Below are positions 1,596 to 63,577 of a stretch of 64,000 nt of DNA, piece by piece; position 1 is the first letter of the stretch, and each line of letters opens with the position of its first letter. A program made the translations under genes and the position numbers. The notes under the pieces were generated by a model. The model had not been told where the DNA came from. It searched no databases and worked only from the letters and a program-made list of their open reading frames with translations. Source of the DNA: Paramecium tetraurelia (taxonomy: Eukaryota > Ciliophora > Oligohymenophorea > Peniculida > Parameciidae); assembly GCF_000165425.1 (NCBI RefSeq), contig NW_001799005.1, forward strand, positions 181,750-245,749. The letters are read 5' to 3'.

Positions 1596-2338
1596 ATGGC
1601 TTAACAATAATAGGTTTAAGTTGCCGCAGAGTTCAAATTAGTCGTCGTAGGTGATGGTGCAGTTGGTAAAACAACTTTTGTCAAGAGACATTTGACTGGA
1701 GAGTTCGAAAAGAAATATCTAGGTACTTTATAATTTGAGTGTGTTTTTAGCCACATAAGGAGTCGAAGTGAGCCAAGTTATATTCTACACAACTCACGGT
1801 CCTATCAGATTAGTCATCTGGGACACAGCAGGACAAGAGAAATTAGGAGGACTCAGAGAAGGCTATTACATCGGAGCTAATTGTGCAATCATTATGTTCG
1901 ATGTCACATCCAGAATCTCCTACAAAAATGTACCCAAATGGCATAAAGATCTCACTAGAATTTGTGAAAACATCCCCATCGTCCTAGTCGGAAACAAGGT
2001 ATCATATCCAAATTCATTCTCTTTTAGGTCGATTCCAAAGACAGAAAAGTCAAGGCAAGATAAATCACATTCCACAGAAAAGTCAACATTCAATACTATG
2101 ACGTCTCAGCCAAATCTAACTATCAATACGAAAAGCCCTTCTTATACTTACTAAGAAGATTGGCCAAGTATTTAACTATCTCTATTCTAGTGATACCAAC
2201 TTAGCTTTAGTCTAAGCCATGGCTCTCTTGCCTCCCGAAATCCCAATTGACCCAGAATATGCTGCCTAAATTGAGAAGGAAAGATAAAATGCTGAAAATC
2301 AACCATTACCAGACGAAGAAGACGATGAATTCAAATGA
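1596..2338 (+). CDS. RAN: Ran GTPase
   Basis: Small GTPase that drives nuclear import and export. 220 residues, three introns (28, 29, 23 bases). Visible motifs: P-loop [10 protein letters not shown] near residue 19, the effector region [15 protein letters not shown] (G3), NKVD (G4, split by the second intron between Lys and Val) and [12 protein letters not shown] (G5), with [12 protein letters not shown] typical of Ran. The C-terminus is acidic (DEEDDE), as in Ran's DEDDDL tail, although here it ends FK. The first residues are Gln-rich through TAA/TAG codons. It is divergent from Rpn11 across about 180 bases of AT-rich promoter. Only the middle exon is visible under the standard code. Confidence 0.96.
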
Positions 2339-2973
2339 TGTTTTTCAATATTCATACAATTATAATAATTTGAAATTTGCCTCCTCCATTTTAATAAAGT
2401 GAAGCTTCAATTTTAAAGAGTTAAGATGTTGAAGCTAACTAAATTTCAAGCCTGAATAAATTTTATATCACTTGAAAATTTAAATATATAAATGAGTATT
2501 TAATATTACTACTAAAATTTCTAAAATACATATTATATTGAATAACACCTAAAAATCCATTTGTTGATTAACTATAATTGTTATAAATCACTTTATCAAA
2601 CATAATTAATAAGATCGTCTAGTGAAAAATAATTCTATTGAGAATGGAAGCTAGCATAATTATAATGATGTAAAGTAATGAGATTAAATATCTATGTTAA
2701 TAATTCCTTATTTTAGTAAAGATTATGATTATTATAAACAGATTTTTTTACATAAAATAATGATTTTTAGATGAATATTTGAAAGTAAAATTTTGATTGT
2801 TTCTTCATAACAAATAAATGTATCATTACTCTCAAAATCAAAAAATAATTCCTTTAATGATTATTTTAAAACCTTTGAAAAGTTATGATAATTTCCAATT
2901 TAATAATTAGAAAAAACAAATTTGTATAATTACTATTCGAAATTAGATTGTTTATGAATACATATTAAATGTG
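2339..2973. other. AT-rich spacer, no gene seen
   Basis: About 635 bases downstream of Ran. All frames are closed by TGA at short intervals and none shows a protein-like run. It is longer than most spacers in this window and borders an ISCA-like relic, so it may include decayed coding sequence that can no longer be recognised. Confidence 0.5.
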
Positions 2974-3245
2974 ATGGTTGATAAATTAAAAATAAAATTG
3001 ACTTTTTAAGGGTAAATTGCAAATTAGAAGAGTACTATCAAAAGTGGTGATCCTGAAAGAGCATTAAAAAATGGAATCAAGGTAGGATAACATACAAATA
3101 ATATCTTGATAATTTAGATTTAAACAAAAGGATGTAATTCTTTAAGATATTTAGCATCAATACTAAGGAATAAAACAATTGCTGTTTATTCTTCAAGAAG
3201 TATATTAATGCTTTTTATATTAAGAAATAATCTTATATAATGAGT
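2974..3245 (+). pseudogene. Relic of an ISCA1-type iron-sulfur assembly protein
   Basis: An open stretch from ATG 2974 gives IKSGDPERALKNGIK, then a 36-base GT-AG segment (about 3083-3118), then IQTKGCNSLRY. This resembles the A-type Fe-S carrier core, where GVKVGVRTRGCNGLSY carries the first cluster cysteine. After that point the frame no longer looks like the family. A plausible continuation (FFKKYINAFYIKKQSYIM, compare the family's VFIEKKA...MDY region) lies in another frame, and no C-terminal CGCG motif follows. I read it as a truncated, frame-shifted relic. The similarity rests on a short by-eye match, so a chance resemblance is possible. Confidence 0.4.
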
Positions 3246-3540
3246 AAGTAATGAACCGCTGTAATTATTTAAGTATACTTTTTACCTTCTAAAAATCAAC
3301 ATTTATAATTCATATTGATTTTTTTTTCATTCATAGTATTAGTATTATTTGTAAGTACTTTTTGTTTTCAGTTTAAAAAATATGTTTAATATTATGTGTT
3401 TAACGAGTGATCAATTATCTAAAAAGATCAGGGATATATACAGATACAAGATTTAACTTAATTAAAAAAATCTTTAAAAATATCTAACCAAATAAAGAAA
3501 TACTATATTCTTTCAAGTTGATCAATATATAATATAATTA

Positions 3541-3979
3541 ATGTAAGATTTAAAACACAGTGAAGGAGATGAAATAGTTTTTCACATTACCAAAAATGCC
3601 CAGCAATATGAACCCAACATTACTTTAGCCACCTCGCCTAATGACAAACCTGTTTAGAATCCAATAACATTTGAAGATATCAAACTAGTATCTTCATTAT
3701 AGGCATCAGCTGATGGCCATTACTAGTCTGTAAGAATGATTTGCTCAGGATGTAAGAGAAAAGTAAGTTTTAAAGATAATATTTAAGGTTAATTCAGTCA
3801 TAAAAAGGCGAGCTGGATTATAAACATTTATTGCTGGAGTACTTTTAATCTTTTGTTCTTTTGGATTTATATGTGTTACTTGTATTCCATGTATGGTAGA
3901 TGATTGTAAGGATGTTTAACATTCCTGCCCAAATTGTAAATAAATTTTGGGGAAGGCCCAATTTAACATACTAGATTGA
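3541..3979 (+). CDS. LITAF-domain membrane protein
   Basis: 137 residues with one 25-base intron near 3762-3786. The C-terminal half is a LITAF domain: CSGCKRK, a hydrophobic stretch rich in Phe, Leu and Cys (membrane-dipping helix), then HSCPNCKQILGKAQF. In this family the two cysteine knuckles on either side of the hydrophobic segment bind one zinc, and the protein sits on the cytosolic face of endosomes and lysosomes, where it helps sort membrane proteins. The N-terminal 65 residues are polar and unrecognised. The start is the first ATG, preceded by very AT-rich sequence; stop is TGA 3977-3979. Confidence 0.88.
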
Positions 3980-4488
3980 CAAAATGATTATTATCATCTT
4001 CTTTGGTTTTAATTTCTATGCATATTATATTTCATAAACGTTTTCGAGTTCAAATCTCACATTCCAAGATAGCTAAATAAGGTATTAAATCCAAGGCTAT
4101 TGCATTATAATCCAACCTACCATGTTGGTTCAATTGCTAGGTATTGATTTAGATCAATTTTAAGTTTAGAAAAGAACATACTTGTGTTATAACTTCAATT
4201 ATAATGTTATTTTTAAAATTATACCAAAACTTCAGAGAAAATCTTAATACTCTCATTAAAGACACCGAATATACATCTAGAGTCATATATTCACATATTG
4301 ATTAAGGTTGAAGAGGAAATTCAATATTAAAATAAAAAACATGAATTGCTCGTAATATATACGAATCGGTTTAAACAGTAAATTTTAGAAATAATATAAA
4401 TTTACATGAATTATAAAATGCTTTATGCTTGATATAGAGATATGCAATTTAAAATACAGATATAAAATGCTTTGATTTGGATACATAT
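3980..4488. other. Convergent spacer, no gene seen
   Basis: Between the LITAF gene and the ARM-repeat gene, which point toward each other. It contains one T-loop-like motif near 4048 but no tRNA fold (see rejected items), and no protein-like frame. Confidence 0.5.
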
Positions 4489-5961
4489 TCATTCAGTTCT
4501 AAAAAACTCCGTGATTAATTTTTGGGATTGGTCGAAAATCTCTTTATTTGGATGATACTGCAAATCTTCGATAGCCTGAATGAGCTAATTTTACTATAGA
4601 ATTGCTAGAATAGGATTTGGAACATTCTATTGGGATTACAACGACAAACCATAATTCATGAGCGAGGTTATACATTCCAATCCTTATAAGACGATGTAAG
4701 GTTCAGCTGATTCGACAGTAGATTTTAAGTGTATAGCAAGACCCAGATTGATGAGAACTGTGAAATCCAATTGGTTTCCATACTTTAGAATGTGTTGGAT
4801 CGATCGTATCACAAGGGATTGATTTATAGGTTTGTCAGTGGTGAGGATATTTATTAGTTTTTTGATTAACTCCTATTGTGAGAATATCTATTAAATGACA
4901 TTGTGTCCTTATTTACATAGGTTTTGTAAAATGTACAAGACTGCTGTTCTGATCTTTTAGTATTTGTAATTGATTAGTTTGTTAATTATTTCCAAGATAG
5001 AAAATTGCTGGAAGATTGAATACAATTACTGAAAATCAGATAAGTATTTCATTTGGAGTAGGGCAGAATAGAAGGATTCAAAGTCATTCTCGTTGGTAAG
5101 ATATTCGTTCAAATAATTAAAGAGTAATTGAAATATTTCAAAATAATTAACATCTCTGTCATACTAATCACACTATTTGTTGATGATAAATAAGGTTTAG
5201 AGTATTTCTTAGCTTTTATTAATCTTCAAATGCTTCAAAATTACTATTAATTAAGGTTTAAACTATTCAGGAATGTTTCTACACAGTGTTTAAATAAGAT
5301 AACTAACATTATACAGCAAAGTGTCCTTCATCAATTAACACAGGATCTCAACTGTGTTTTTGCTAAGTAAATAATGTTGGATTTGTGCTAATTTGCTTGA
5401 GACATTGCCCAAATACCCCAGTATCAAATTAGCCAAATCATCTATTTGTTTATTTTCTATGAGCAACTCCAGGGATCTCTCTATTGACCACTGAATGTCT
5501 TCAAAAGGCAATTAAAAATATTCCTCATCTTAAGTCAATTACAGATAAATTGTGAATGTGTCAATGTAGTAGGATTCATCATTCAATAAATCCTTGAATT
5601 ATAGGAAATTCCTTTATGTTAAATACAAACTATGTATGCGATTCCTGTCATCTATGATATTGGCAATCAGATGCAGTTTTTATGAAATCTCATTCATCTC
5701 CTTCTTTGCGTAAACTATCTTAAATTCATTGAATAAGTTGTTAATCGAAAGATTCATTTAAGAACCCTGCAATCTCTATTTTGGTATAAACCACATCCTC
5801 TTCTTCTCCAATTACTCCTCGATTCGCTCTTTCCTAATTTACAACCGAAACTGCTCTCTCATCTCGTAAATACTCTTTGGCTGAATTTGCTTCTAGTTTT
5901 TTAATGTCTAAGGCTGATACTGTAATTCATTATCCGATTCAACAAGTTTTATTTCATCCAT
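4489..5961 (-). CDS. Importin-alpha-like armadillo repeat protein
   Basis: 490 residues in one uninterrupted frame with no intron needed. A basic N-terminus containing REQFRLQIRKERIEEQLEKK resembles the importin-beta-binding domain of importin-alpha, and the rest is helical with paired-helix spacing typical of ARM repeats, e.g. VLYILQNLCQQGHNVIQ and LVIRSIQHILKYGNQ. Importin-alpha carries NLS cargo, bound through Trp/Asn ladders; those ladders are poorly preserved here, so this looks like a divergent relative and not the canonical carrier. Stop is TGA 4489-4491 and the start ATG is at 5959-5961. Its presence near Ran may be chance. Confidence 0.7.
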
Positions 5962-6045
5962 TATTTATAATAATAATAAAAACTATTGAATTAAACTTCA
6001 GTTCTCAACTATTTACTCTACCCAATTGGATTGGACCTCTATAAT

Positions 6046-6241
6046 TCATTTCAGCACCAATTTACTGTATAGTTTTTAAGCTTTGAAGAACCTATGAAAT
6101 TTCATTAGCATTTACATTGTATTTTTATATTCATATTTAACTTATGAAATGGATTACTATTATTTCGTATTGAATTGGATATAGAACTATATATGTCTCC
6201 CTCTGAGCTTCCTTGATTAACTTAAAATACACGATATCCAT
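6046..6241 (-). CDS. Possible small gene, unknown
   Basis: ATG at 6241 opens a frame encoding MDIVYFKLIKEAQRETYI, followed by a 31-base GT-AG intron and then a basic helical segment ending KLYSKLVLK before TGA 6046-6048, for 54 residues in total. The exon lengths sum to a multiple of three. Without the intron the frame meets a TGA after about 40 codons. It is too short for family assignment and could be a relic. Confidence 0.35.
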
Positions 6242-41162: not shown

Positions 41163-44100
41163 ATGTCTCAACCATTAAGGTATGGTTAAATTATATCACT
41201 TAAACCTTCAGAAATGGATCATATGTTCGTTATCAGTGATGGTCACATTAAAACGAAAGCTTAGATCTTTGAAATCAAAGCCAAGAAGGTTGCATCTGGA
41301 ACACTTTTCTTTTAAAGTCTGTTTCAAATTTACCCTCAATTCCAAACTTCGAAGATCGACTAGGCATTAAAATTGGAGCGCGAATTGCAAAAAGAGAAAT
41401 ACTAAAAAGACAACATGAAATCAAATAAAATAAAGGAAATGGAAGAAAAGGTATTTCAAGAATACAAACAAAATATTGAGACAGCAGAGAAAAACAAAGA
41501 CTAGATCTTTACAATGGCTTAGCCTATTTAGTTCTTGCATTTATCCAGCAACAAATTCTTGGCGTGTAATTATTTCGAAGCAGACGAAGAAAAAGAAAAT
41601 TTCAAATTAGAATTGAATGAATATCCCTCAGATAATACTTGCTTCAGACTTGTGCCTGCCTACTTTCACCAAACCAGAGCTGATGGATTGATTGCAGACG
41701 AACCCTTATACATAATCATGGATAAAATCTATCTCGGCATGAAACCCTACCTACACATGAGTGATTCCACCAAGCGCTACAATAATCATCTGATATTGGC
41801 TTCAAGGACTATGTTCAACTTCCCGAATGCTAAGGCTCTCCAAAGGAAAATAATCTCCGGACAAACCAAAAGCAAGTAATCCAGAGTTGATCTCAATGAC
41901 TTACAAGAACCAAATACTCAAATCATGTTGATGGCTCTTGATTACAAAAAAAAGTAAGATTTAGAATTAGCACATCAATTGGCATCAGCAGAATCAATAT
42001 AGAAGAAGGAAATAAATGTTTCCTTAGAAAAAAGATCTCCCTTCCTTATTTCAGTCTTCTCCAATACAGAAGAGGACGAAAACAAAATATATTTTGGAGA
42101 TGTGATTTGGTTGCATCACATAGAACTGAATGCAATTTTAGTGACTGTTAAAAATATGTCGGATGAAATTATTGTTTCACTCTAATAGACTAAAAATGAT
42201 TAATTGGGTGAGTTTATTGGTAATACGAATGGAATGTGGTACATAGAGAGTTTGAATATGAAAGGAGGTCCAGTAGAGTGGGGTTAGATTTTTAGGTTAA
42301 GACACTTTTCATTGGGGAAATATTTGGCTGTTTAGAAGGAATAAGATAGAGATACTGATACTTATTCATGCTTTTATTTGGAAGACAAACAAAGCGAGAA
42401 CTCTTTATTGTAATTTTCAGCTCTTCCAAGTTCAATCAATGAAAATGAAAAGTTTGTAACTAAGGATGGCTTTTTCAAACTGAAAAATAACAAAAAATGG
42501 ATCTAATTCATTGATAAGCATCCTGATTCTGATTCATCAATAGTTATGTTGAGGTTAAGTGACAATTGTAAGGATGATGATGTCCTCAAGTGTTACAAGG
42601 CTAATTTAAATGAGATTCAAGAGACATCCTTTTTGGTTTCTTGTTTTCCAATCATGAGGAAGACTTTGTCTATTTTGACTGATTTGGCAACCAAGGATTA
42701 CAAGAAGATCTATCAAGATAAAAACATCAAGTTCCCAAAGAAGATTGCCTAATTAAAGAAAGTGCTCTAGGATTTAACCAGATTTTGTTCAAATTAATTT
42801 CTCATTAGCAGTTAAAACAGATAGAAGGTGTTAAAGGAGCAATACTTTATCGATATCTTATTAGAAATATTGTGTAATATCAGCAACGAGGGTGAGATCA
42901 AGGAATATTTGGAATTGACAAGGAAAAAAAAAGGCCACGGATTTTCTGATACTATTTAGAGATCAGCAGCTTAAAAACTACATTCTGCAGCATTTTAAGT
43001 CAGAGATGCCTTGCTCTAAGATTTTGGTTAGGTGGCTTCGAGAGTATAGTAAGAGAATGACAAGAAATAATTAAGGTAATATATTGGAGAGAAATTTGAA
43101 GTAATCAAAATGATTTATCAATTATTGATTTGTATATGCAAGGACAACAATTAAAACGAAGCATATGTCTATGATAGAGTAGAAAAATTCTAGTATTAGG
43201 CTAAATTTTTTAAGGAAACTACCGATTTCATTATTTCTTTACTTAAAAACAATGAATAGTTATTATAAAATCTAACTGAAAAGATTCGTTTATCTGAATA
43301 GAAATAAAGAAGAATAAGACATGAATCTATTAAATCATATCCTTAATTTAGGCTTGATAGTAGTTTGCTTTAAAGAGATCCAAATAATATTGTACTATTC
43401 TATAAGAAATTGGTAGAGGAATCTCAGAATTCAAAGGATTACATTGAGTTTTTTAGAACAATATGTAAATACAATAATAAGGGATTATCTGTCAATTAGG
43501 AAACTATTTTTAAGAAATGCTAAGAAAATCCAAAATTCAATAATGCACTATTTTGGACTATTACGTGTACAGACAATTAGATGCTGATTGAAAAGGATAT
43601 TGACAAAAAGACTATGTTTTAATTAAACAAAGAGGAATTGGAATCATTTGTTGCTCAATTGAGATTATACTCAGACTTGGCTCTTTCAAGAAACTTTTAG
43701 TGGAAAGGAATACTTGAGAAGAAATTCCCAAAGTAATTTACATTTGAATAAATCTTTAATAACGAATTAGATCCTGATGTTAGATCAGCTCTCTGTAATT
43801 TGGCATTAACTGTCTATATTGATCATGAGCCTTTGCATCTATAAATTGTTCCAAATTTGTGCAGATTAGTCAACCAATAGGCAATTAAACAATAATAGGA
43901 ATTTCATGACCATGAAATATTTAAGTAGTTAATTCCTAAAGTAATGACACAGATCCATGATTATAAGAAGAATTTGATTGACGATTTAACAAAAGGGTCA
44001 TAAGCAAGCAAGAAAAAAAAGTCAGAAGCGCAGCTACAATTAGATATTATTAAACTTGCTAAGACTCTGATTCAATTTGATGTTGTCAATTTGATTAATA

Positions 44101-47100
44101 GGAAGGATATCTATAGCGAAATATTGCAACCTCTAATCACATTTTTAGAATATGATAAAAATAATTATGTGTTGTCATATTTGATGAATCTATAGAGGGA
44201 AGAAACTCTAAAAAGAGCCAAGAATTCAAATAAAATAATCTCAACAATGAAAGGCATGGTGACTGGAGCCATTGATGTTGGTAGAGCATTAGTAAATGTG
44301 GTTGTAAGAAAGAAGCAAGATCTTGAAGAGGAATTTGCAGAATAGACTTTGTTTTCTAAGCATCCCATTACTGCTAGTTTACTGACAATCACTTCAAAAA
44401 TACAGAGTCTAAATACTGAGAAAGGGGAAGAAACCTATTAGATTGACATTGAATAAAAAATGGAAGTTTGTGAGTTGTTGATATTCTTTTAGGAAATGAG
44501 ATTGGATTTCTTGATCACTAACTTTTTGGCGTTTTATGCTGCCAAATAGAAGAAGAAATCTAATAAATTAAAATATGAATTGGAATTTGATTTATTATAA
44601 GTATTGCCACCTACATTGAGAACTGGAATTGAGGAGCCAACCAAATAAGGAGCCAAAAATATCATATAATGGTTAGGAGATATTATTTCGAGAATGGGTA
44701 GATTCTTGAATAAGAAATTTAATAATTTTACCAAAGAATAAGAAATGCCAGATTTGGATACACTCATGAGTGGGGCAAATAAGGATTTGGTCAAGGAGGC
44801 TGTTTTGCCATCCCTTTTAATTGTGTTTCACGTTTCAAGTGATTGCTTGCTTTTGGATAAGGTAGTGGAAGTTATTAGGAGGTGCTTCTCATAGAAGTTG
44901 GAATTATTCGAAAAGATGAGAGACCTTGAGATCCTGTTTGACTAAACTGAAATCAATTGCTATTAGAAAATGGTTTAATTGCTGAGTAGATTGAGAACAT
45001 TAACTGAGTCATCTGAAGTTTGGATTAACACTTTTCACCATAAGTCAACAGAAAAGGAAGCATCTAATGAACCCAAAGAGTTGCATCAAGTTTAGCATAT
45101 CACTAAAGATCTTGATTCTTTATTGTACAAACACACCACTGTGACTCCAAATTTAGAAATCATTACTTAGGATGACTTCTTATAGATATCTACAAGCAGA
45201 CAAAAAGTGTTCAATTTTCTTAATGGACACACACCTTTAATTAATTTTTTGAGAGATTCATAAAATTAATTATGTGATTTCCTAAAGGGTGGATATAAAG
45301 CAGATTATCAATAGACAGTTTCAGAATTGCTAAAAACAATTTATTAGTGTTTAACTAATTTTTGCAAGGGAAACAGGCCAAATTAGAATTTATTAGCATA
45401 ACACTTTGAACTCTTTGTGGATGAAATCGAAATAGATTTTGGGTAAACTATGTTGTTATGTGCAATTTATGAGGATAATAAATTTTTGTGTGAGAATATT
45501 CCAGATTCTAGAATCAAATAGTTTCTAGGTTATATCAGGGATTTTGGGAGACAAAGTAGATTTTTAGAATTGTTAAAAACAATTCAAATTTGTAAAGGGC
45601 AGAGTCTTGTTGAGAATCAATTGAAAATACTCTCATTTTTATTACCTCATCAAAAGGAGGAAAATAAGAAGGCTCATGAATATTTGCTATGGGGACAATT
45701 TACAAAAGATTCAAAGGGAATTGAATTTAATTTCTTTAATGATGGGCAAGATAAGGAATAGAAACATCAACCATATAAGTATCACTGTAAATTAATCGAC
45801 TTGCTATTGTAGACTACGTAAGGGGAGGAGAGTTACAAATTAAATACTCCAAAATTAAAACAAATATTTTCTTTGGGGTATTTGGTTAATTTGGTGGCTG
45901 AAGAAAATGATGAATTCATTGAAGGCTACTTTCCAAATGGAACTAAGGATGCAAACTAACTGAAGGTGAAGGTTATACTCTTCATCAATTGGATTTATAT
46001 CTAAAATAGTTTGACCTAATAGGAGGTGATGATTAAGGAGCAAGCTAACTTTAATAAGTTATTCAACAAAGAGAAGGAAAGATTGTTAAAGTTAAGTTCA
46101 TATCCAAATAGAGATGAATATCTGAAATACTTTTTTGATCATTTGGTTCCTCTGTTTGAAAACTTTGTGAATAAAATTTATGCTCAAGAGAAAGCATAAA
46201 GAGATGACAATTATGAGTATTAATCATTTTTATTAATTTAGTGTGCTAAAGGAAATATTGGAAACAATTGCCATGATGTCAGATGGAATTTTATGTCAAT
46301 ATCTTACAAAAAACCAATATAATGCATTGTATAGATTGTATAAGCCATTTGAAGAGAACACAAATAGACTATAAATGAATTTCTCATCAGCCATCAAAGA
46401 TTAGAATGATGGCTTATCGAGCAACAAAAAATCTGTGTACGAACCTCCTCCTCCTGAGTTTATGAAGTCTTCTTTGAAGAAGAATTAAGTCATGACAATC
46501 TTTAATAAAAAGGAGAAGTCCTTTTTAACTGAACAATTTAAGACACCTAATTCTAATGATAAGTCTAAAATGTCAAGAAATAAATTCTCGTAAACCTCAT
46601 AGTAATTATGGGTCAATAGACCCAATTGGTTCTAATTTTTGGATATGTGTGAGTAGAGTTAAGTGTTGTAGGATAAGATTAAAGAAGAACTCCACACTTT
46701 GGCCAGTGCAATATTCCACATAGACAAACTTGTTTCTGATAAGATGAATACGAGTTAAAGCAATTCCGTGAATCTTGATTTTAAGGGGTTTTTAAAGAAA
46801 TACATAAGATTCGTGGAATAAGGGATCATCAATAAAGCAGGGAAAAAGAATCTCATCTATTCATTATAGCTATTGGAGGAATTGCTGACTATTAACGATT
46901 TGGAAGAGATGCAAAATCTGTTTGATCAATAGAATGCAACGAGAATGATATTGAATATAATAGCAGACTATAAAATCTATCCCTTTGATGACGATTTCTT
47001 CAACTAACTATTAAGTTTTGGGTGTAAGCTGCTTGAAGGGGGTAATCCAAAAGTGCAAAAGACAATTTTCAACTATTTTTCAACCTATAGTAGATCTGAG

Positions 47101-49899
47101 AACATTTTTAGCAAATTGAACTTGGTTATCAATGATCATATAGAAGAATTGAATATTAAGTACAAGATACAGAATGAGATGCAGAAGGAAGAAAAATAAC
47201 AGCAAATATTGCAATTAGATACTGAACCCCAAGTGCCCTAGGATTAAGTCAATGATCACACCTAAGAAATGCAGTTTAAACAAAAGCTCCGAGAGTCCTT
47301 GTTGATTAATGTGCTGAGATTTGTATAATTATTTTGTGAAGGTCACAATTTGGATTTATAGAATTATATAAGATAGTAATTTAATTCAAGAAACAATTAC
47401 AACTTAGTTTCTAGTATAATTGAATTGCTTTACATGTATCATTTAGAATTGACAAATGAAAATTATGAGAACATCTTGAGGTGCCTGGACACTTTGACAG
47501 AGTTTGTTTAAGGGCCTTGCTGCTAAAATTAGTAGACAATAATTGATAGCAAATTCCTTGAGGTTGCCAATTCCTTATTGGCCACCCAAGCATCAAAATC
47601 CAAGTCCAAAGAGCACAGTTCAAAATCATTCTTTAGTTAAGACGAATAGAGCAATTAAAAGAATAGTTCTTCAAATTTGTCAGTTGGTAAAATTAAGTCT
47701 GGCAAATCATTTAAGAACAATCGAATCAATATAAAAAAGTATATGTTAGAGAGGATTAAGTACAAGGTGATGGTGTTGGTCACAAGTTTATTGGAATTAA
47801 ATTCTGATAGTTTGGCAATCAAGAGAATTATGAGATCTTTACCGATTGAAATCCTAAAGAAGAATCTAACCCAAATTTATAAGAAGCACAAAAAACTTTA
47901 TGGACCAACGTATACTCAAGATGCATTGAAACATGTATGTATATTGTATTAATTAAGATTGATGAAGATCCAGAAGGTAACACTGAAAAGCCTGAATTTC
48001 ATGAAGCCATCCTAGAAACAGGGTTTTATATATATTTCTTAATTTTATATTATTACGAATTAGATACTCAAGAGATTGATTAGGAGACATCTACAGAATT
48101 GCAGAAAGCCAAAAACAGTTTGTTCAACAAAAACCTATTTATGGATTCATTGATTGGGCAGTTGTTTACCTTTGCCTTTGCCATCATTGGAGGTGTGTTA
48201 ACAACAATAAGTCAAGCCAAAAATTACTTATAGAAGGCTGTTGAGCGAATTGGCCAAAAAATAGATTCAACTGAAATTGATAAGAAAAACTAGAAGCAAA
48301 AAGAGATCAATCAAGAGATATTCAGAGAAACTATCTAATTCTTCGCATATAATTCTGCTCATGTTGAAGTGGTCAGAAACAATTAAATAGAAAGAATCCA
48401 ATTCTACAAACCTCCTTATTGCAAATATCTTCCCAAAGAACGAAAGAAGGAGTTCCATGAGACAGTGAACAGAGATTCAACTAATTCCAAAATATCTGAT
48501 TTGATAGAATAAACGGATAGCATTATTGAAGTTTGCAAACATGAAGAAAAGTTAGCTGTCTTCTTTAGTAAGAACAAATTTATAGCAATATTTGCTAATT
48601 ACGTTATTTTATGGAAGGATTTGGCATTTATCCTAACATTACTATTAAATTTATTCATCATTTTATCGTATGCTGACAATGAGAAAACGGGATAGCAAAC
48701 AGGAGATGAAGTTGAAAGCATTTAAACAATTAGAAAGAATAGAATTAGCAACCCGATATTGCTGAATTCTAATCTTAGTGTGGAAGAAACAGAATCATTG
48801 TTTTTCATCTGTGGTATAATAATGATTGTATGCTCGACTTTTGTGGTGCTGTTCTTTTTATTGAAGAAGGCTCCACTCTACATTAAAGAATCATATAAGA
48901 AATAAGATTTAAGTGAATATGGAGTTCTGATCAATTCTTTGTTTTAGATTTTTAATTTTAGTTATAGCATTGCGAGAGTGCTTCTGAACATCGAGATCCT
49001 TTATTACTTATCATATGGAACCCTAGCATTTTTAGCCACATTTTATCATCCATTTTTCTTTGCCTTCCACCTTACGGAAATAGTCATACGATTCCCCTAA
49101 TTACGTAATATCATTAAAAGCTTTTGGGAACCAAAATTGTCATTATTACTCACATTTATTCTAATCATCTTATTTAATTACTTTTTCACTTTATTTGCTT
49201 ACATATTCTTCTATGATGATTATTCAGGAAAGTGTGAGAGCTTGTTATATTGCTTTTTGGAAACTTTTGACAAAGCATTCAAGAATAATGGAGGTATTGG
49301 TGGATGGCTGGATTCTAATTAACCACAGGATCCTGGAAATTACAATTACGGTAGATTCTTTTTTGATAATCTCTACAATATAGTGATTGTGATCATCATG
49401 ATCCAGATATTCTCAGGAATCATTATTGATACCTTCTCATCTTTGAGAGAGAAGTAGATGCAAAGAGATTAAGACATTTAAGAAACCTGCTTTATTTGTG
49501 GATTCAGCAGGTAAATTAATACTTATTATTTTTAATAGAGAGTTGTTTGATAGAAAATCTGAAGCTGGTTTTAAATTGCACACACAGTATGAACATTATA
49601 TGTGGAATTACGTATTCTATATCTCGTATTTGAAAGAGAAAGAACCCACAGAGTACACAGGAATTGAATCTTATATTGCGAAGAAACTGAAAAATTACGA
49701 TAATTCGTGGATACCTATAAACAAAGCGATGGTATTGAAGAATATGGTTTTGGAATCTCAGCATTATGAAACAGAGAAATTGTAAGATATCTAAAGAGAA
49801 ATGGACTATATCAAGAAAACGTCTTTTGAGATTTATAAAGAAATGGAAGAATTAAACATTCAATTTTTAAATAAGTAATTACTAAATCAAGAAAAATGA
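41163..49899 (+). CDS. IP3/ryanodine receptor-type Ca2+ release channel
   Basis: 2,886 residues after three introns (25, 23, 28 bases; total length checks). N-terminus LRYGQIISLKPSEMDHMFVI matches the IP3 receptor suppressor domain; a MIR-type segment (KIYFGDVIWLHHIELNAIL) and RIH-like helical regions follow, e.g. NRQKVLKEQYFIDILLEIL. The C-terminal membrane domain spans about residues 2455-2760, with the pore loop NNGGIGGWLDSN and inner helix IFSGIIIDTFSSLREKQ, then the conserved linker ETCFICGFSRELFDRKS with a following HTQYEHYMWNYVFYI (Cys2-His2 zinc site) and EPTEYTGIESYIAKKL. These are hallmarks of tetrameric ER calcium-release channels. Paramecium has a family of such CRC channels in several compartments. 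Which one this is cannot be decided here. The IP3-binding lysine/arginine set was not verified. Confidence 0.95.
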
Positions 49900-55168: not shown

Positions 55169-57203
55169 TCAATTTAATAATTCGAAAAATGCATCCTGAT
55201 TATCTAAAATACACTATTTAATCTCTGACATTCCTTTTATAGTATTATAATTCAAATAACCATGAGATAAGTTTTCATATATAGTTATTTTTACATCTCT
55301 CTGCACAACTCTAGGTCATAAATTAAATATATACTGTAGTCTTTAAGCCAATCGAAAAACTTAATCATACAAAGGATCTTAATCACCACAAAACAATCTT
55401 GTTGGGGGGAACTATTTTAAAATATCATATGATAATAATAAAGGACTCATAAATGGATCAATCCCCAATTAAGAATCTGGATGTGCTGAATAAGATTCAA
55501 TACAAATTCCTAAAATAGTATGACTAAGTATTTTATCATTGATTGACTTCAAGTAACTAGGAGTGTACTAGAATCTTATATCAACAGCAGGATAATTCAA
55601 TATCAACCCATTTGGGATTTGTAATTTATATTTAATAGTTAAGCCAACCAAAGCCGTTGCCAAATTACCACCAGCACTATCGCCTGTAACAATGATTTTA
55701 TTGGGAACTATTCCAAATGTTTTTTCAGAATAATTTAATATCCAATTATAGGCTTGCCAACAATCATCCAAAGGTATTGGATAAGGGTATTTAGGAGCTA
55801 AACTATAATCGATCGAAAAGATGGGAACATTTAAATTGATTGCCCACTCTCTGGTATAGCATTAATGACTTGATGAGGATTGGGAGATAAAACCTCCTCC
55901 ATGAATATGTATGATAATCTTATCTTCAATAGTGTTGTTTTATTTTATGAAAAATGATTTCAAGAAACTAAATATATTATCCTATTCCACTACATGTTGG
56001 TTGTACAATAGCCTGATTCGAATTCTGCCTTTATTTTTGATAAATAAGAATTTGTCATCTCTGTGTATTTCCTAATTCACATATTCAATTGGCTGATTGG
56101 AAATTTGATCATAGATTCCTTATCTAATTTAACTATTTGCTTCTTAAATTGTGAGTGGCAGAACGACTGGCAAAATATAGAACTTTATGTTTGTAGAAAT
56201 TTTGGGCAATCCCAAATTAATTAAATGCTTGACTCCTGGTAATTCAATAAAATTCATAGCCTAATATGCAGTGTCAGCTTTTAATTAACTCATATGATCT
56301 TTCATTCCTTTTTCTGCTGCTGATCTTGATAAGAAATAGTACATTGAATTTAAACTTACTGAAAATATTTTACCCCATTTGCTGGTAGTCTTCTTGCAAT
56401 CATTTACTAGGGCATGACCAACCATAACAGATTATACAAATTTATCAAATGATTATCTGATTTATTCTGGATCACCTAAAGACTTTTATACTATTTATAT
56501 AAATTATACTTTTCTGGTAGTGATGCATTCTAATTTCTTCCAAACTGGATGAGTGCTACTTAAAGACATAATGTCATTTTTGTCTGTATCTATTGCAGAA
56601 GGCATAATTAAATTAAGCATTAGAATTTCTGTCCCAAAAACCTTGATTTCATCAGTTAAGCTTTGAGAAGCAAAAGTATGTTATTCATACAATTTCAATT
56701 GTTATTGCATCTTAGGCAAGAACTCTGTCTATAAGTAATGATAGGGAACCTGCAACATTCTTATATTGACATCATCTGCCTTTAGTGCTTTAATTGATCT
56801 CTCCTATACATAATCTAGGTGAAAGGAAACAATACTTTATTTTAATTCTAAGAGTATCTTGCTTTCTTGTTCTTTACAGTTTGACAAGAGTTCATCTACA
56901 ATCTATAATCCTTTCAAGAGAATAAAAAAATGTCTGTTCGCATTGTTGAAGATCCTATTTTTTGTTTCAGATTCACACTTTACAGTTTTGAGTATCTTAA
57001 TGATGTGGTTCAATTAATCGAGTACTAACGAATAGGTTTAGTATTAATACTATCTCGAGTAGCTTAAAGGCATTATTCTTGAGATTAACATTGATCTGAG
57101 TTTCTGATTTGAATTTAAATCTCAGTAGGAACTTATGCCTGAGAAGACTTGTAGCAAACATTGTTAAAAAGTGTGTAATCATCTATTTCACTTGTTCTGT
57201 CAT
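55169..57203 (-). CDS. Hormone-sensitive lipase-type esterase
   Basis: 658 residues with introns of 34 and 24 bases (length checks; a further stop-free 27-base segment near 56500 also has GT-AG ends). The N-terminal 400 residues are helical, like the HSL N-terminal domain. The C-terminal alpha/beta hydrolase has the oxyanion motif IHIHGGGFISQSSSSHQC, IFSIDYSLAPKYPYPIPLDD, the nucleophile elbow VTGDSAGGNLATALVG, YPAVDI, then the acid region FCGDQDPLYDQ and the catalytic histidine in YENLSHGYLNY, which lies after the second intron. HSL-type enzymes hydrolyse stored acylglycerols and sterol esters. No obvious regulatory phosphorylation module is visible. Start ATG 57201-57203. Confidence 0.92.
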
Positions 57204-58721: not shown

Positions 58722-61700
58722 TCATCTCACAGAAAATTCTCTAGAATCATCAGTTTTTCTCCCATGTATATATGTCGAATAATATGCACATTTATTGCTA
58801 AAATTATAAATTGATTTACAAGAAAAAGCTTTTATCTAAGTCAATACAAAGACCATCTTTTAAATTATTATCATCATAATTGCAAGAACCACTAAATTAA
58901 AATATAGACTTACATCAGTTAAGTTTCATCATAAACTTGCAATTTCAATACCCACTCACCCTTTCTCTTACCTACTGAATATTCTCCTTCAGATAAAGTG
59001 AAGCTAGATAACAGGCAATTCCAACTTAAATCGCTCCATTTTTTATCTTTATTTCCAAAATTATCATATGTACCACTAGCGCTTAACTATTTGATTAAAA
59101 TAATACATAATATCTCCTTGTTCAAATTACATATCCTTCGAAGTTTGCCACAACCCTTGCTTAACTCCTGATTTGTACTGTCCAAACTAATATAATTAAA
59201 AGAATCTGCCATTTTTAATTTCTATTTTACTCCCAAAAGTTTTAATGAGGTTCCAGCCATCCTCCATTTTTATTCCCGCAAGTATCATATAATCCCTCTC
59301 CGCTATGAAATCAGCAAACTTAATACATAACTGAGAATTCATTTGTTTTATGAGCTCTAAATAAAATTTCGGATTTTCCAACCCTACACCCAAAATGATA
59401 ATTTAATTTCTATATTATTTAGCGAGATCTGACATAATTCTTATAGTTACCTACAAAATTTTTGATCAATGTCTATCCACTATCCATTTTTAATCCCTTT
59501 CTCATAACAACCACCTCCACTATGGTTATTATTGAACTTTACATTTTAATGAATTCTTGATCAGTGAATTCGCGAAAATTAATGGCCCAATCACCCTATT
59601 TTATTCCATTTTAGTATTGCCCTTTTTTTGTAACTTGACAAAAACTTATGTTATAATGAAGAATACTCTCTAAATTTCTCGTGTAACTCATTCCAATTAC
59701 CATCTTTTCTTCCTTATGAATTATAATAACCTTCCCCTCTAATGGCAATAATAAATATTAATAACATTTAAATAAACTAAGAACCATGAATTTTCCGATA
59801 TTCAAAAACAGATCTTCCAACTTTTTTCCCGTTTTAAAATTACACTATTTCTCTAACTTAACAGGAACTTTTAAATAAAATCTAATGTTACTCTGAAAAA
59901 CTTTCATATAATTCTTTCCATATTCCAGATTTTTAACCATTTTACTCATAATCTCCACCTCCTCTAATTTATATAAACAGCCAATTTTACATGATTTCAA
60001 AGCCCTTACTTTCACTGTATCTATATTTGGCAATCCATTTTCCGGTTTTTTTCATATTTTTATAACTACCTTCAAGGATAATTTGAGAATCTCTCAAATT
60101 TAATGTAATTATACTCTGCGAAATTTTCAGATAGCTCCTTCCAATCTTCAATTTTATCTCCATTATTATCATAGTTTCCTCCTCCACTAATATTCTACTG
60201 AACTATACATTTCTTCAATTTTATCCTCTTTATTTAGTCGAAGAATTAATTTTTTTTTAAATATAATTTTCCAAACTCCAATTTTCTTTCCCTTTTCGTA
60301 ATTTCCGCTCTAAAAAATATCACAATTCCTTTGATAAATACAAATCAAAACTATTGATAATTTTTGCATGGTTCATTCCATTAACCAATTTTTCGCCCTT
60401 TTTGATCGTATTAGCCTGATCCTCTAACCTTTGTTCTCGTTTATGAAATGTGACAAAATTTAGGGAAATCTTTTGAACTTTAAATTACCCATTCATCTAT
60501 CCTTATTCCATCTTTATATGCCCCTTTATATATCAATTAATTCTATCTAAAGGTAACTTAATAATTGTTACTCACAGAAATCCTCAATTAAATCTTACCA
60601 CATCCCCTATTTAATTCCCATGTTATCATAATTACCGCTCCCACTACATTAATTCAAAAAAATACATAATTTTATTATTTTTTGTTAAAATTTCCACCCA
60701 TTTAACAATCCATAATCCTGTTTTTATACCGTTTTAATATTCCCCAATTTCCAATATCAAAACACCTCTGTTATGGCAGAAAAATAATTTACCCTTATAA
60801 AATATCCTTTAGTTGTGTCCATTTGCCATTTTTCAATCCGTTGGTATCGTATGATCCTCCTCCTCTAAATGGATTGTTTATTATAAAATACAGCACAGAG
60901 TTTTATGAGATTATTTTCCACTCCCCTGTTCTTTTTCCCATATCATAATAACCAGAAAACAATATTTATTATTTCCTTTGTTATTCATAATATTTACAAA
61001 AAAATGAGTTCTAGCTTCTGATTTATCCATTTATTTTCTGAAAATTAATAGTCATCATATATATTGTTATTGCTAATTAAATTATATTTTTTGTTACATC
61101 TGCTTAAAATATCCATTAGATTCCAAAAAGTAAATATCCAAATCCTAAACTTATTTACAGTTTTTATATATTATATTCCACTGGAATTCAGAAAAACTGT
61201 TTTTATAATCAATAACAATTGTTTGTACCTTAGCTAATCATATTGCTCAACCCAAGCGCCTTCCTACCTTCCTTATTAATCATATGATCCACCACCACTA
61301 AATTAGATTATATCTAAAATCCCTACATTTTTTTCCACATTTAACTGGACGATTTTCTAATCTTTATATCAAATTAGTGGCATTTAATTCCGTTATTATA
61401 TTCTCCCTCAAAAATAACCTAGTTTGATCTATCAATGTTTAGAGAATTTATAAAACCTGCAAAATGTCTTTAATGTTTATATCCATTTTCCATGTTTTTA
61501 TCCATCATTGTTATAAAGTCCACCTCCACTAAGTCATTTATGGGAATCTATACATTGTTTAAAAGTCTGAGCCAGAGTCATCTCTAAATTTGACAAAGAA
61601 CTCCCCTTATTTTTTTCCTAGGTAATATTACCCAAAACAAACAACTTAACTTCCACTTTAATCAAATATAAATAATTTTTACTCATGGTTTTTTCTAAGT

Positions 61701-62211
61701 TGTTTAAAATATGGAAATTGATGAGGAAGCATGCTATAATACTAAACTTATTTACTTTGGAAAATAAAAGTCATTTAAACTTAAATTGTAGTATAAAACT
61801 AAATAGTTATTAAATTCTTCACTATTTAATATAACGCTTAGGAGAATTTCAATATATATAATACCATTTAAACACTCTCTCTTTAAATTTCGTAAAAGCA
61901 ATATTTTCAAGTTCTCCTTAGCTTACTTGTGAGTCTTTTGTTTCAAATAATTATTTTCTTAAATGTTTTATCAAATTAATTGAAATTTATGTGATTTATC
62001 CTTGCACTATCATTTTAGCTTCTCCATTTTGTTTGAATTTGAGAAAAATTGTTTAGACTAAACATTTATTATTACAGTATTTGTCAACTTAAATCCTCCA
62101 AATTCCAATCGGTTTGCTGCCATTAATTTGTCCTGCCTTAATAATTTTTATTTTTTCTACATAGCACAATTGATCTCCATATTGAATGTAAGAGTTTTTA
62201 TTCTAATTCAT
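58722..62211 (-). CDS. MORN-like tandem repeat protein with introns in every repeat
   Basis: About 965 residues. The gene looks shattered in all frames until at least 24 introns of 22-32 bases are removed; exon length then sums exactly to 966 codons. It consists of about 13 units of roughly 220 bases (73 residues). Each unit has a first half GGGSYDxxGxKxGKWxEL (e.g. GGGNYDNNGDKIEDWKEL, GGGSYDTNGLKNGKWTQL) and a second half of MORN_2 style (e.g. GEYQNGIKTGLWIVK, GQYYLGKKQGEFFVK). GGG-type motifs lie near + positions 58880, 59077, 59297, 59510, 59737, 59957, 60187, 60417, 60642, 60862, 61075, 61294 and 61525. In most units one intron splits an Ile codon (AT|..) just before GGG, and another splits a codon near the middle, often Glu/Asp (GA|..). 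Start ATG 62211 gives MNQNKNSYIQYGDQLCYVEK; stop TGA 58722-58724. Function unknown; MORN-type repeats often bind membranes or proteins. Confidence 0.82.
58800..61600 (-). repeat. Tandem array of about 13 diverged units of roughly 220 bp
   Basis: Spacing between successive GGG-motif codons on the minus strand is about 231, 219, 213, 220, 225, 230, 230, 220, 227, 213, 220 and 197 bases. On the + strand the motif appears as a C-rich island (CCTCCNCCTCTA-like, e.g. near 60857 and 61289) against an AT-rich background. Units are diverged at the base level but keep length, the two coding halves and intron places. Coding content is described under the gene. Confidence 0.85.
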
Positions 62212-62454
62212 TTCTATTTATAAATTTTATGAATAGATTGAATAATTTAATATAGTCTATTCATTTTATATACTTTCTTAGTTTTAGATTGAAACATATG
62301 AATACGACTGCCAAATACAATTTTATATAAGCTTATTAATGATCTCTGATTTCTTTTAGTTTTATTACATTCCTTCATAAAAACTCAAATTGAGATTCAT
62401 TTGATTAATTAATATAAAAATTATACTAAGCTTTATTTAGATAATTCTATTATT
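62212..62454. promoter_or_regulatory. Divergent promoter region between repeat gene and TPR gene
   Basis: 243 bases between start codons on opposite strands, very AT-rich. No defined element can be named. Confidence 0.35.
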
Positions 62455-63577
62455 ATGAAGCTACATATCCATAATATAAATGAAAATTAGAATAACGCAA
62501 TGAAAGAAGATGATAATCCTGAGATGATAGAAAATAACTTCAGTGAACTATCTATAGATGAGAATGCAAAATAACTCAATAAATTCATAAGCAATTATTA
62601 ATCATTAATTTCCTATAACATAACATAGGAGAAATACATCTGCCATCTCAGCTAGAAAAAAAGTCTTGTTATTTCATAATATGTTTAGTTGAGCATTCTA
62701 AAGATAATAAATTACTCAGCTTCTGTAAAGAAGTTTTTGCAAAAATGAAAGATATTAATGAAAAGTTTGATCAATTGAATATTAGCGTAAATCTATTCTA
62801 AGAAACTAATGTAGTAATATTTAATATAAATAATTAGTTGGATAAAATTAAGAATAAAAATGACAGTCTACTTAAATTATTTAGTTAAGCAAAAGATTCA
62901 TACTCAAAAGAGAAAAAAACAGAGGCTTTCTAAAAATTTACAGAAGTTTTAACAATGAATCCAAATTTTATAGATGCTAGAATTTATAGAGGTATTATCA
63001 AAATAATGATTTAAAAAGGGTATTTGAGTTTGGATGTTAACAACACATGTTATGCATAATTTGACTTTGAAGAAGTATTAAAATAAGACAAATACAATTT
63101 AAAAGCTTTAAAAGGAATAAGTAATTGTTCTAGCTAAGCATAGCTAAAGCATTTAAGATGTAATGTAACTACGAATTAGGGTTGAAGTATGCATTGAAAG
63201 TGATCAAATATGAGCCTAAATCACCAATAGGTAATTTTAATGCAGGTATTTGAATTGAAATAAAAGCCGACTGTTTGAAATTTTTGGGATAATATAATGA
63301 AAATACTCTACTATATATAAATTAAGCCATAGACTAAGAGAAAAGAAGATTCGAATAAAAATTACAAGTTTATTTTAGAAATAAGGGTAATATGACATGT
63401 TATATAGGGGAAATATTATTTGGATTAAACAGAGAGAGTGAGGCAAGGGAATTTGTATTGAAAGCACTTGAGTTAAATTAAAATTATGAATTGGCTATAA
63501 AAACATTAAGTAAAGAATTTATAAGCCTTTATATAGAGAGATTTGATGAGATTTCAAAAAGGAGATTCAACTAATGA
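62455..63577 (+). CDS. TPR-like protein, unknown
   Basis: 350 residues after three introns (26, 23, 21 bases; length checks). The N-terminal 80 residues are acidic and Asn-rich; a coiled coil follows (KEVFAKMKDINEKFDQLNIS). From about residue 150 there are TPR-type helix pairs: FQKFTEVLTMNPNFIDARIY, QFDFEEVLKQDKYNLKALKG, LGLKYALKVIKYEPKSPIGN, ARSEFVLKALELN-like repeats (EAREFVLKALELNQNYELAI). TPRs mediate protein contacts; Paramecium has many such genes. No catalytic domain. Start is the first ATG after very AT-rich sequence; stop TGA 63575-63577. Confidence 0.78.

Follow-up and report, generated by a model that had tools for sequence, protein, structure and literature searches.

Two recurrent phase-2 intron places in a tandem-repeat gene family of Paramecium tetraurelia

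The closest described case to the gene reported here is the LRR family of Tetrahymena, a large family whose genes are, according to the published account, built of 90-bp exons separated by phase-2 introns of about 56 to 257 nt (PMC6564038). Its youngest members are placed in subtelomeric and pericentromeric regions of micronuclear chromosomes, and clonal expansion with unequal crossing over has been proposed (PMC6564038). The same account states that its authors were unaware of such exon uniformity in another eukaryote and that the LRR genes of P. tetraurelia show no 90-bp peak (PMC6564038). The bicycle genes of aphids are described as rapidly evolving, with many tiny exons that are nearly all phase 2, and as detectable by gene structure where sequence fails (PMC9168663). 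Introns of Paramecium are reported to be mostly 20–34 nt long (about 25 nt is typical) and to number about 2 per gene genome-wide (PMC5485702, PMC11334263). Intron gain from coding sequence, together with possible exonization, has been discussed genome-wide for Paramecium (PMC9612004).

Here we describe a tandem-repeat gene predicted in a 64,000-nucleotide window (the whole stretch of P. tetraurelia DNA that was analysed), the end of which is the end of contig C52. With the Tetrahymena LRR arrays, as described, it shares a ciliate genome, tandem exons that match a protein repeat and an extreme phase-2 bias. The two differ in exon length (90 bp there, 72 and 102 nt here), in intron length (about 56–257 nt there, 22–32 nt in the focal gene) and in the protein, which is LRR there and non-LRR by Pfam here; moreover, units here have two intron places, of which one class of genes has lost one. 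By analogy with the published description, the present family would represent the same kind of mechanism with a different protein. The aphid bicycle genes are alike in being a rapidly evolving family with tiny phase-2 exons, but they are animal genes for putative effectors, encode an unrelated protein and are not described in that account as 60-residue tandem repeats. Compared with the reported features of Paramecium introns generally, the lengths are the same and the number differs (about 2 per gene versus 27 in the focal gene). No description of the family was found in the open-licence literature searched, a scope outside which most subscription journals fall.

Structure of the focal gene

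The ciliate code was used, with TAA and TAG read as Gln and TGA as the sole stop; this code and the short introns of 22–32 nt both point to Paramecium. Since an ab initio codon-usage model found the introns only in part and mixed the frames, we adopted a profile approach. A single focal-gene protein query against the same genome (69.07 Mb, 231 contigs) matched 56 places at E ≤ 0.001, 5 of them within the focal gene, and twenty stretches were taken from the matches. The profile was built from 42 unit sequences needing no internal splicing, drawn from eleven paralogue loci and containing no window sequence. It is cyclic, has 60 columns, and was applied with a spliced Viterbi algorithm free to place a GT...AG intron (18–66 nt, with a preference near 25) anywhere; intron places and phase are not fixed by this construction. 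GT and AG at every junction are no evidence by themselves, because the model permits only GT...AG introns. The paralogue unit ends read into the first-place intron, the split Ile codon and the following GTA appearing as Met plus Gln or Tyr. These read-through letters were trimmed and Ile was substituted, so the last profile column rests on paralogue introns and not on those of the focal gene. A profile re-estimated through realignment drifted (total score 7176 to 3920) and was discarded; we retained a version whose columns were held fixed during re-estimation and from which the focal gene was excluded.

With the profile from other loci, the focal gene consists of 13 repeat units and a preceding half unit (Table 1). 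A first model, made without a bonus for the family columns, has 26 introns (640 nt) and 949 codons. All 24 of its repeat introns, which total 590 nt, are phase 2; 12 lie in profile column 59, in the Ile or Leu codon before GGG, and the other 12 in columns 24–26 (10 of them in column 25). The final model, from which a 28th call (47 nt, in the C-terminal flank and running past the stop) was dropped, counts 27 introns (667 nt); its CDS of 2823 nt comprises 940 codons and one terminal TGA. Its 25 repeat introns are all phase 2 and all at two places: the first, in the codon before GGG, is filled at 12 of the 13 junctions, and the second, between the unit halves, in 12 of the 13 units and in the half unit. 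The second-place intron of the cap unit (27 nt) is called only with the family-column bonus, and the other two introns of the N-terminal region, which the profile does not cover, are the gene's least secure calls.

Table 1. Predicted features of the focal gene, in positions of the window; introns are written from donor to acceptor
Feature	Position	Strand	Details
Whole focal gene, ATG to TGA	58722..62211	-	27 predicted introns; 940 codons + stop; ATG putative, frame also open upstream
N-terminal region and cap half-unit 0	61554..62211	-	Introns 61864-61837 (28 nt), 61755-61734 (22 nt), 61682-61656 (27 nt, second place)
Units 1-5	60448..61553	-	First-place introns 61553-61529, 61326-61298, 61097-61073, 60891-60865, 60665-60644; second-place introns 61456-61429, 61228-61197, 60997-60976, 60792-60768, 60571-60547
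Putative former intron before unit 6, first place	60424..60447	-	24 nt, read in frame
Units 6-7	59964..60423	-	Introns 60351-60329 (second), 60208-60187 (first), 60114-60093 (second), 59990-59964 (first)
Units 8-11	59082..59963	-	Second-place introns 59891-59868, 59666-59645, 59450-59429, 59230-59206; first-place introns 59765-59739, 59542-59520, 59326-59303, 59106-59082
Unit 12	58914..59081	-	Single 168-nt exon; second-place intron absent, no trace
Unit 13 (incomplete) and C terminus	58722..58913	-	Introns 58913-58892 (first), 58819-58798 (second)

A first-pass annotation of the same DNA had counted 13 units and at least 24 introns totalling 592 nt, leaving 966 codons free of TGA. The unit number was recovered here, and removing introns does open the frame; its other figures give way to those of the final model, and the 592 nt probably omitted the N-terminal introns, since the 24 repeat introns of our first model sum to a nearly equal 590 nt. 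Its description of two places reused in most units, one of them splitting an Ile codon before GGG, agrees with our models, and the places line up when the units are aligned in profile columns (24/24 phase 2, two places). Intron sequences differ between units, as it had said: same-site introns of the focal gene retain no residual similarity. We confirm the loss that it reported of one intron in the last complete unit, at the second place of unit 12; a further absence, which precedes unit 6 and concerns the first place, is missing from it.

Exons of 72 and 102 nt recur in the focal gene, and none of its 28 exons is 90 nt long. The three frames of the spliced CDS contain 1 (terminal), 11 and 51 TGA, and GC content is 0.341/0.293/0.238 by codon position and 0.211 in introns. 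All 25 repeat introns are 22–32 nt long; 22 start with GTA and 14 end with TAG, GT...AG itself being required by the model. The first-pass annotation expected that so many introns would make the gene very sensitive to splicing errors; six of the 25 are multiples of three, and the five of these that have no in-frame TGA could be retained without a stop or a frameshift.

The observed pattern is real and well beyond chance. The focal gene scores 366.7, and none of 60 dinucleotide shuffles exceeds -63; with the same profile its opposite strand scores -113.7, and 34 other stretches of the window reach at most -7.0. When the profile columns were permuted (60 runs), no more than two introns fell in the two commonest (column, phase) places. 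Across 16 parameter settings, 21 of the 24 focal junctions were identical in all 16. The intron at 58819 was called in 16/16 settings, in column 25 or 26 (8 each), and those at 60891 and 60351 in 12/16, with a phase-0 alternative to the latter, at 60341, in 4/16. The gene is presumably expressed and functional.

The encoded repeat

Both halves of the unit carry GxYxxGxKxGxW and align with each other, and we take these halves to resemble MORN. No Pfam or NCBIfam family was found at a meaningful level. The best match to MORN in Pfam (PF02493) had E 0.33 in one of 15 units, with none in two joined proteins, and LRR had no Pfam match in these units or proteins. Weak matches to Mob_Pre (15 bits against a cut-off of 25.5 in one search, E 0.0035 in one of the 15 units in another) and to DUF7657 were judged to be chance.

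An alignment-based structure model of 55 residues from window sequence has three strands (mean pLDDT 71.3, pTM 0.46, first nine residues below 50); a 64-residue exon modelled alone was poor (mean pLDDT 50.6) and was set aside. Foldseek with the unit model gave no match at E below 1, and a PDB sequence search listed SET7/9 at E 0.52–0.89, behind an unrelated top match at 0.062. The likeness to MORN consists of the motif in each half and the predicted beta strands, and the difference of the lack of a significant Pfam or structural match. As modelled, the protein is probably a beta-strand repeat scaffold, loosely MORN-like by resemblance and not by membership.

Intron places and unit relatedness across the family

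We compared 21 models, comprising the focal gene and 20 paralogue models; L033 and L034 were joined as C106, L046 was modelled on each strand and L036 is two tandem genes. The family gene number, obtained from one focal protein query, is a lower bound. Without column reward, the 21 models, focal gene included, have 292 repeat introns, of which 273 are phase 2. Column 59 accounts for 169 and column 25 for 70, which puts 239 at exactly the two places; another 18 fall in columns 24, 26 and 27. When the columns are rewarded, first-place introns occupy 178 of 211 junctions, and second-place introns are present in 87 of 220 full units.

By occupancy of the second place, the genes divide roughly into a two-intron class (the focal gene, L042, L044, L046 on both strands, L047, L048, L049 and L050) and a one-intron class (L032, L035, L036, L037, L039, L040, L041, L043, L045 and L051). 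L038 is akin to the two-intron class, but at 6/13 and with several junctions cleanly lacking the first intron, and in C106 units with and without the second intron alternate in two stretches. A cap unit is visible by eye in 20 genes (L038 and L049 excepted) and carries a second-place intron in 15 of the 20, in both classes; cap units without a called one are those of C106, L037, L039, L041 and L046.

These patterns suggest that a two-intron unit is likely the ancestral state of the family, because the second intron of the cap unit is common to both classes, and because the two places recur family-wide and mean identity among focal units (0.29) does not exceed that between them and the units of other genes (0.32). 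The first-pass annotation had proposed that a two-intron unit was amplified and its introns then drifted, forming a natural series for intron evolution. Introns are indeed copied with the unit, as sibling units in C106 demonstrate, and their subsequent drift is supported by the dissimilar same-site introns of the focal gene; the amplification, however, is not specific to the focal gene. Such a series exists, but given the family-wide places and the unraised identity among focal units, it is the family and not this single gene that provides it.

In each of the ten one-intron genes, units are more alike within the gene than between genes (e.g. identity 0.49 versus 0.39 in L035). The same holds for the two-intron L044, the minus strand of L046, L048 and L049 and for L038, but not for L042, the plus strand of L046, L047 and L050. 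The class split is therefore not clean in age, since some two-intron genes also have raised within-gene identity. The focal array reads as old, because its within-gene identity is not raised and its same-site introns share no residual similarity. Its protein is the third most divergent of the 21 models, with a mean identity to consensus of 0.39 (range 0.36–0.59). A tree of 215 units is poorly resolved, so that repeated loss, regain and conversion are indistinguishable on it. Gene labels change 119 times on this tree (200 shuffles: mean 165.9, minimum 157), showing that units cluster by gene, and second-place presence requires 39 parsimony changes (300 shuffles: mean 67.3, minimum 59).

In C106, near-identical neighbouring unit pairs have matching introns. 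Two sibling blocks (387 and 366 nt) hardly differ across the first 260 columns of their alignment, a stretch with two introns inside, one of them the same letter for letter. Past that point they align less tightly, and in one block a gap of 21 columns spans the donor side of the next intron and leaves the frame intact. This contig (12046 bases) holds 38 modelled family units from about 3.6 kb on, in two-unit higher-order blocks, and may be a collapsed or broken array.

Our preferred reading, to which we give a probability of about 0.8, is that the focal gene is an old, divergent member of a multigene tandem-repeat family in which the two-intron phase-2 unit is ancestral and introns travel with the units. 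The ancestral gene would have had a cap unit followed by repeat units, each with one phase-2 intron in the boundary Ile codon and another between the halves. Because both boundaries of a unit share the same codon phase, its duplication or deletion leaves the frame intact, and unequal exchange would have duplicated or deleted units or blocks with the frame kept and the introns carried along. The focal gene would have retained the two-intron plan, and the second class of genes would have re-amplified units already without the second intron. After duplication, introns would diverge beyond recognition save for GT...AG. Single introns would then be lost cleanly or by small deletions, or alternatively become coding, where a splice site mutates in an intron whose length is a multiple of three and which contains no TGA. 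What tells against this reading is the divergence of the focal protein, the TAG ending of only 14 of its 25 repeat introns, the poor resolution of the unit tree, the five cap units with no second-place intron called and the imperfect separation of the classes by age.

The same recurrence might arise if every unit held the same proto-splice sequence and introns were created there many times in parallel. Gain from coding sequence has been proposed for Paramecium (PMC9612004), and the second place does switch state often on the unit tree (the 39 changes given above). Set against this are the dominance of one phase and two places across the 21 models, the intron sequence itself that young sibling units of C106 have in common, and the presence of the cap-unit second intron in both classes, and we consider such parallel gain quite improbable.

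That the focal gene is a decaying pseudogene, its frame open only through free choice of introns, also seems unlikely to us. Its high divergence and one apparently broken donor would fit decay, and GT...AG at each junction, being required by the model, does not count against it by itself; yet a window-free profile yields a score and intron places that shuffles and permuted profiles do not, TGA is absent from the interior of the spliced frame but occurs 11 and 51 times in the other two, and the sole segment with a broken donor is in frame. Germline internal eliminated sequences (IES) are bounded by TA and have a length range similar to these introns, so the short segments might be imagined as unexcised IES. 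We give this almost no credence, as it is GT/AG-bounded segments that restore the frame and repeat at a fixed codon phase, TA-ended segments being outside the model.

Absent introns, contig ends and intron fate

The two absences in the focal gene are of different kinds. In unit 12 the second-place intron is cleanly absent. Before unit 6, the exact site of the first-place intron reads AT / TTCATAAACGAGAACAAAGGTTAG / A, with an intact acceptor (TTAG), TT in the place of the GT donor, a length that is a multiple of three and no TGA. All focal models read through this segment in frame, and excising it in thought leaves Ile before GSG, as in the family; its family position indicates that it is probably a former intron. 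The cap unit of L039 offers a parallel (24 nt, TT for GT, TTAG retained), giving two clear cases of donor change, both of 24 nt. At a junction of L051, GTA is kept and TAA stands where TAG is expected, with a possible upstream acceptor, making this a possible case of conversion from the acceptor side. Four junctions of L038 (contig C166, far from contig ends) are cleanly without the first-place intron, and this chromosome-interior member may be losing introns precisely. In the two tandem genes of L036 (units from position 1972 to 6208), ten first-place introns are 37–58 nt long, beyond the usual Paramecium range of 20–34 nt.

TGA-free introns with a length divisible by three are reported to be counter-selected in Paramecium (PMC5485702, PMC11334263). 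Of the 272 family introns called at the two places, 253 are 18–36 nt long, and 78 of these have a length divisible by three (P = 0.42, the reference being one third and not the genome background). An in-frame TGA is somewhat commoner in these 78 (18 of them) than in the remaining 175 (24; P = 0.07). As a lead only, the family shows no visible shortage of such translatable introns, in contrast to the deficit that is reported for introns of Paramecium at large.

The family is over-represented near contig ends. The focal gene itself lies 1.8 to 5.3 kb from the end of its contig. After merging matches by contig, and leaving aside the three loci on C179, C230 and C23, whose contig sizes are not known, 8 of 21 loci are no more than 5 kb away from a contig end (3.3% expected, P = 2e-7) and 10 of 21 no more than 10 kb (6.7% expected, P = 3e-7). 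Without the focal contig, which had prompted the question, and the 12-kb C106, the counts are 6 of 19 (5 kb, P = 3e-5) and 8 of 19 (10 kb, P = 1.5e-5). The expectation comes from genome and contig totals only, and the contigs are macronuclear, the ends counted being contig ends. Between the focal gene and the contig end, gene-like open frames occupy 62403-63577 (+), with no Pfam match in the two pieces tried, and on its 3' side it adjoins an alpha/beta hydrolase gene at 55316-57091 (-; PF07859, E 1e-42). Elsewhere in the window, open frames at 41163-46352 and 47937-49550 (+) contain IP3/ryanodine receptor domains (PF08709, PF02815, PF01365) followed by an ion-transport domain (PF00520); they probably belong to a single gene for an intracellular calcium-release channel, interrupted by small introns.

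Studies of intron gain and loss usually follow a single event per gene and compare species. In this family one intron place is met again in almost every unit of many genes, so that clean loss, loss by deletion and conversion to coding sequence can be tallied together within a single genome, sibling units serving as reference. We tentatively raise the possibility, itself rather doubtful, that the family, with some two hundred copies of each of two homologous places so far in arrays that differ in age, amounts to a replicated experiment on intron fate inside one genome, in which TGA-free introns with lengths in multiples of three are recurrently converted to in-frame coding sequence by single splice-site changes. 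If true, surveillance-driven selection on introns would be weak in this family, feeding coding novelty near chromosome ends. The pattern is more general than first noted and makes the family a good test bed for intron fate. It also suggests that a second ciliate has evolved exon arrays with matching phase near chromosome ends, built on another protein repeat and with very short introns, which argues for matching intron phase as a general aid to array growth.
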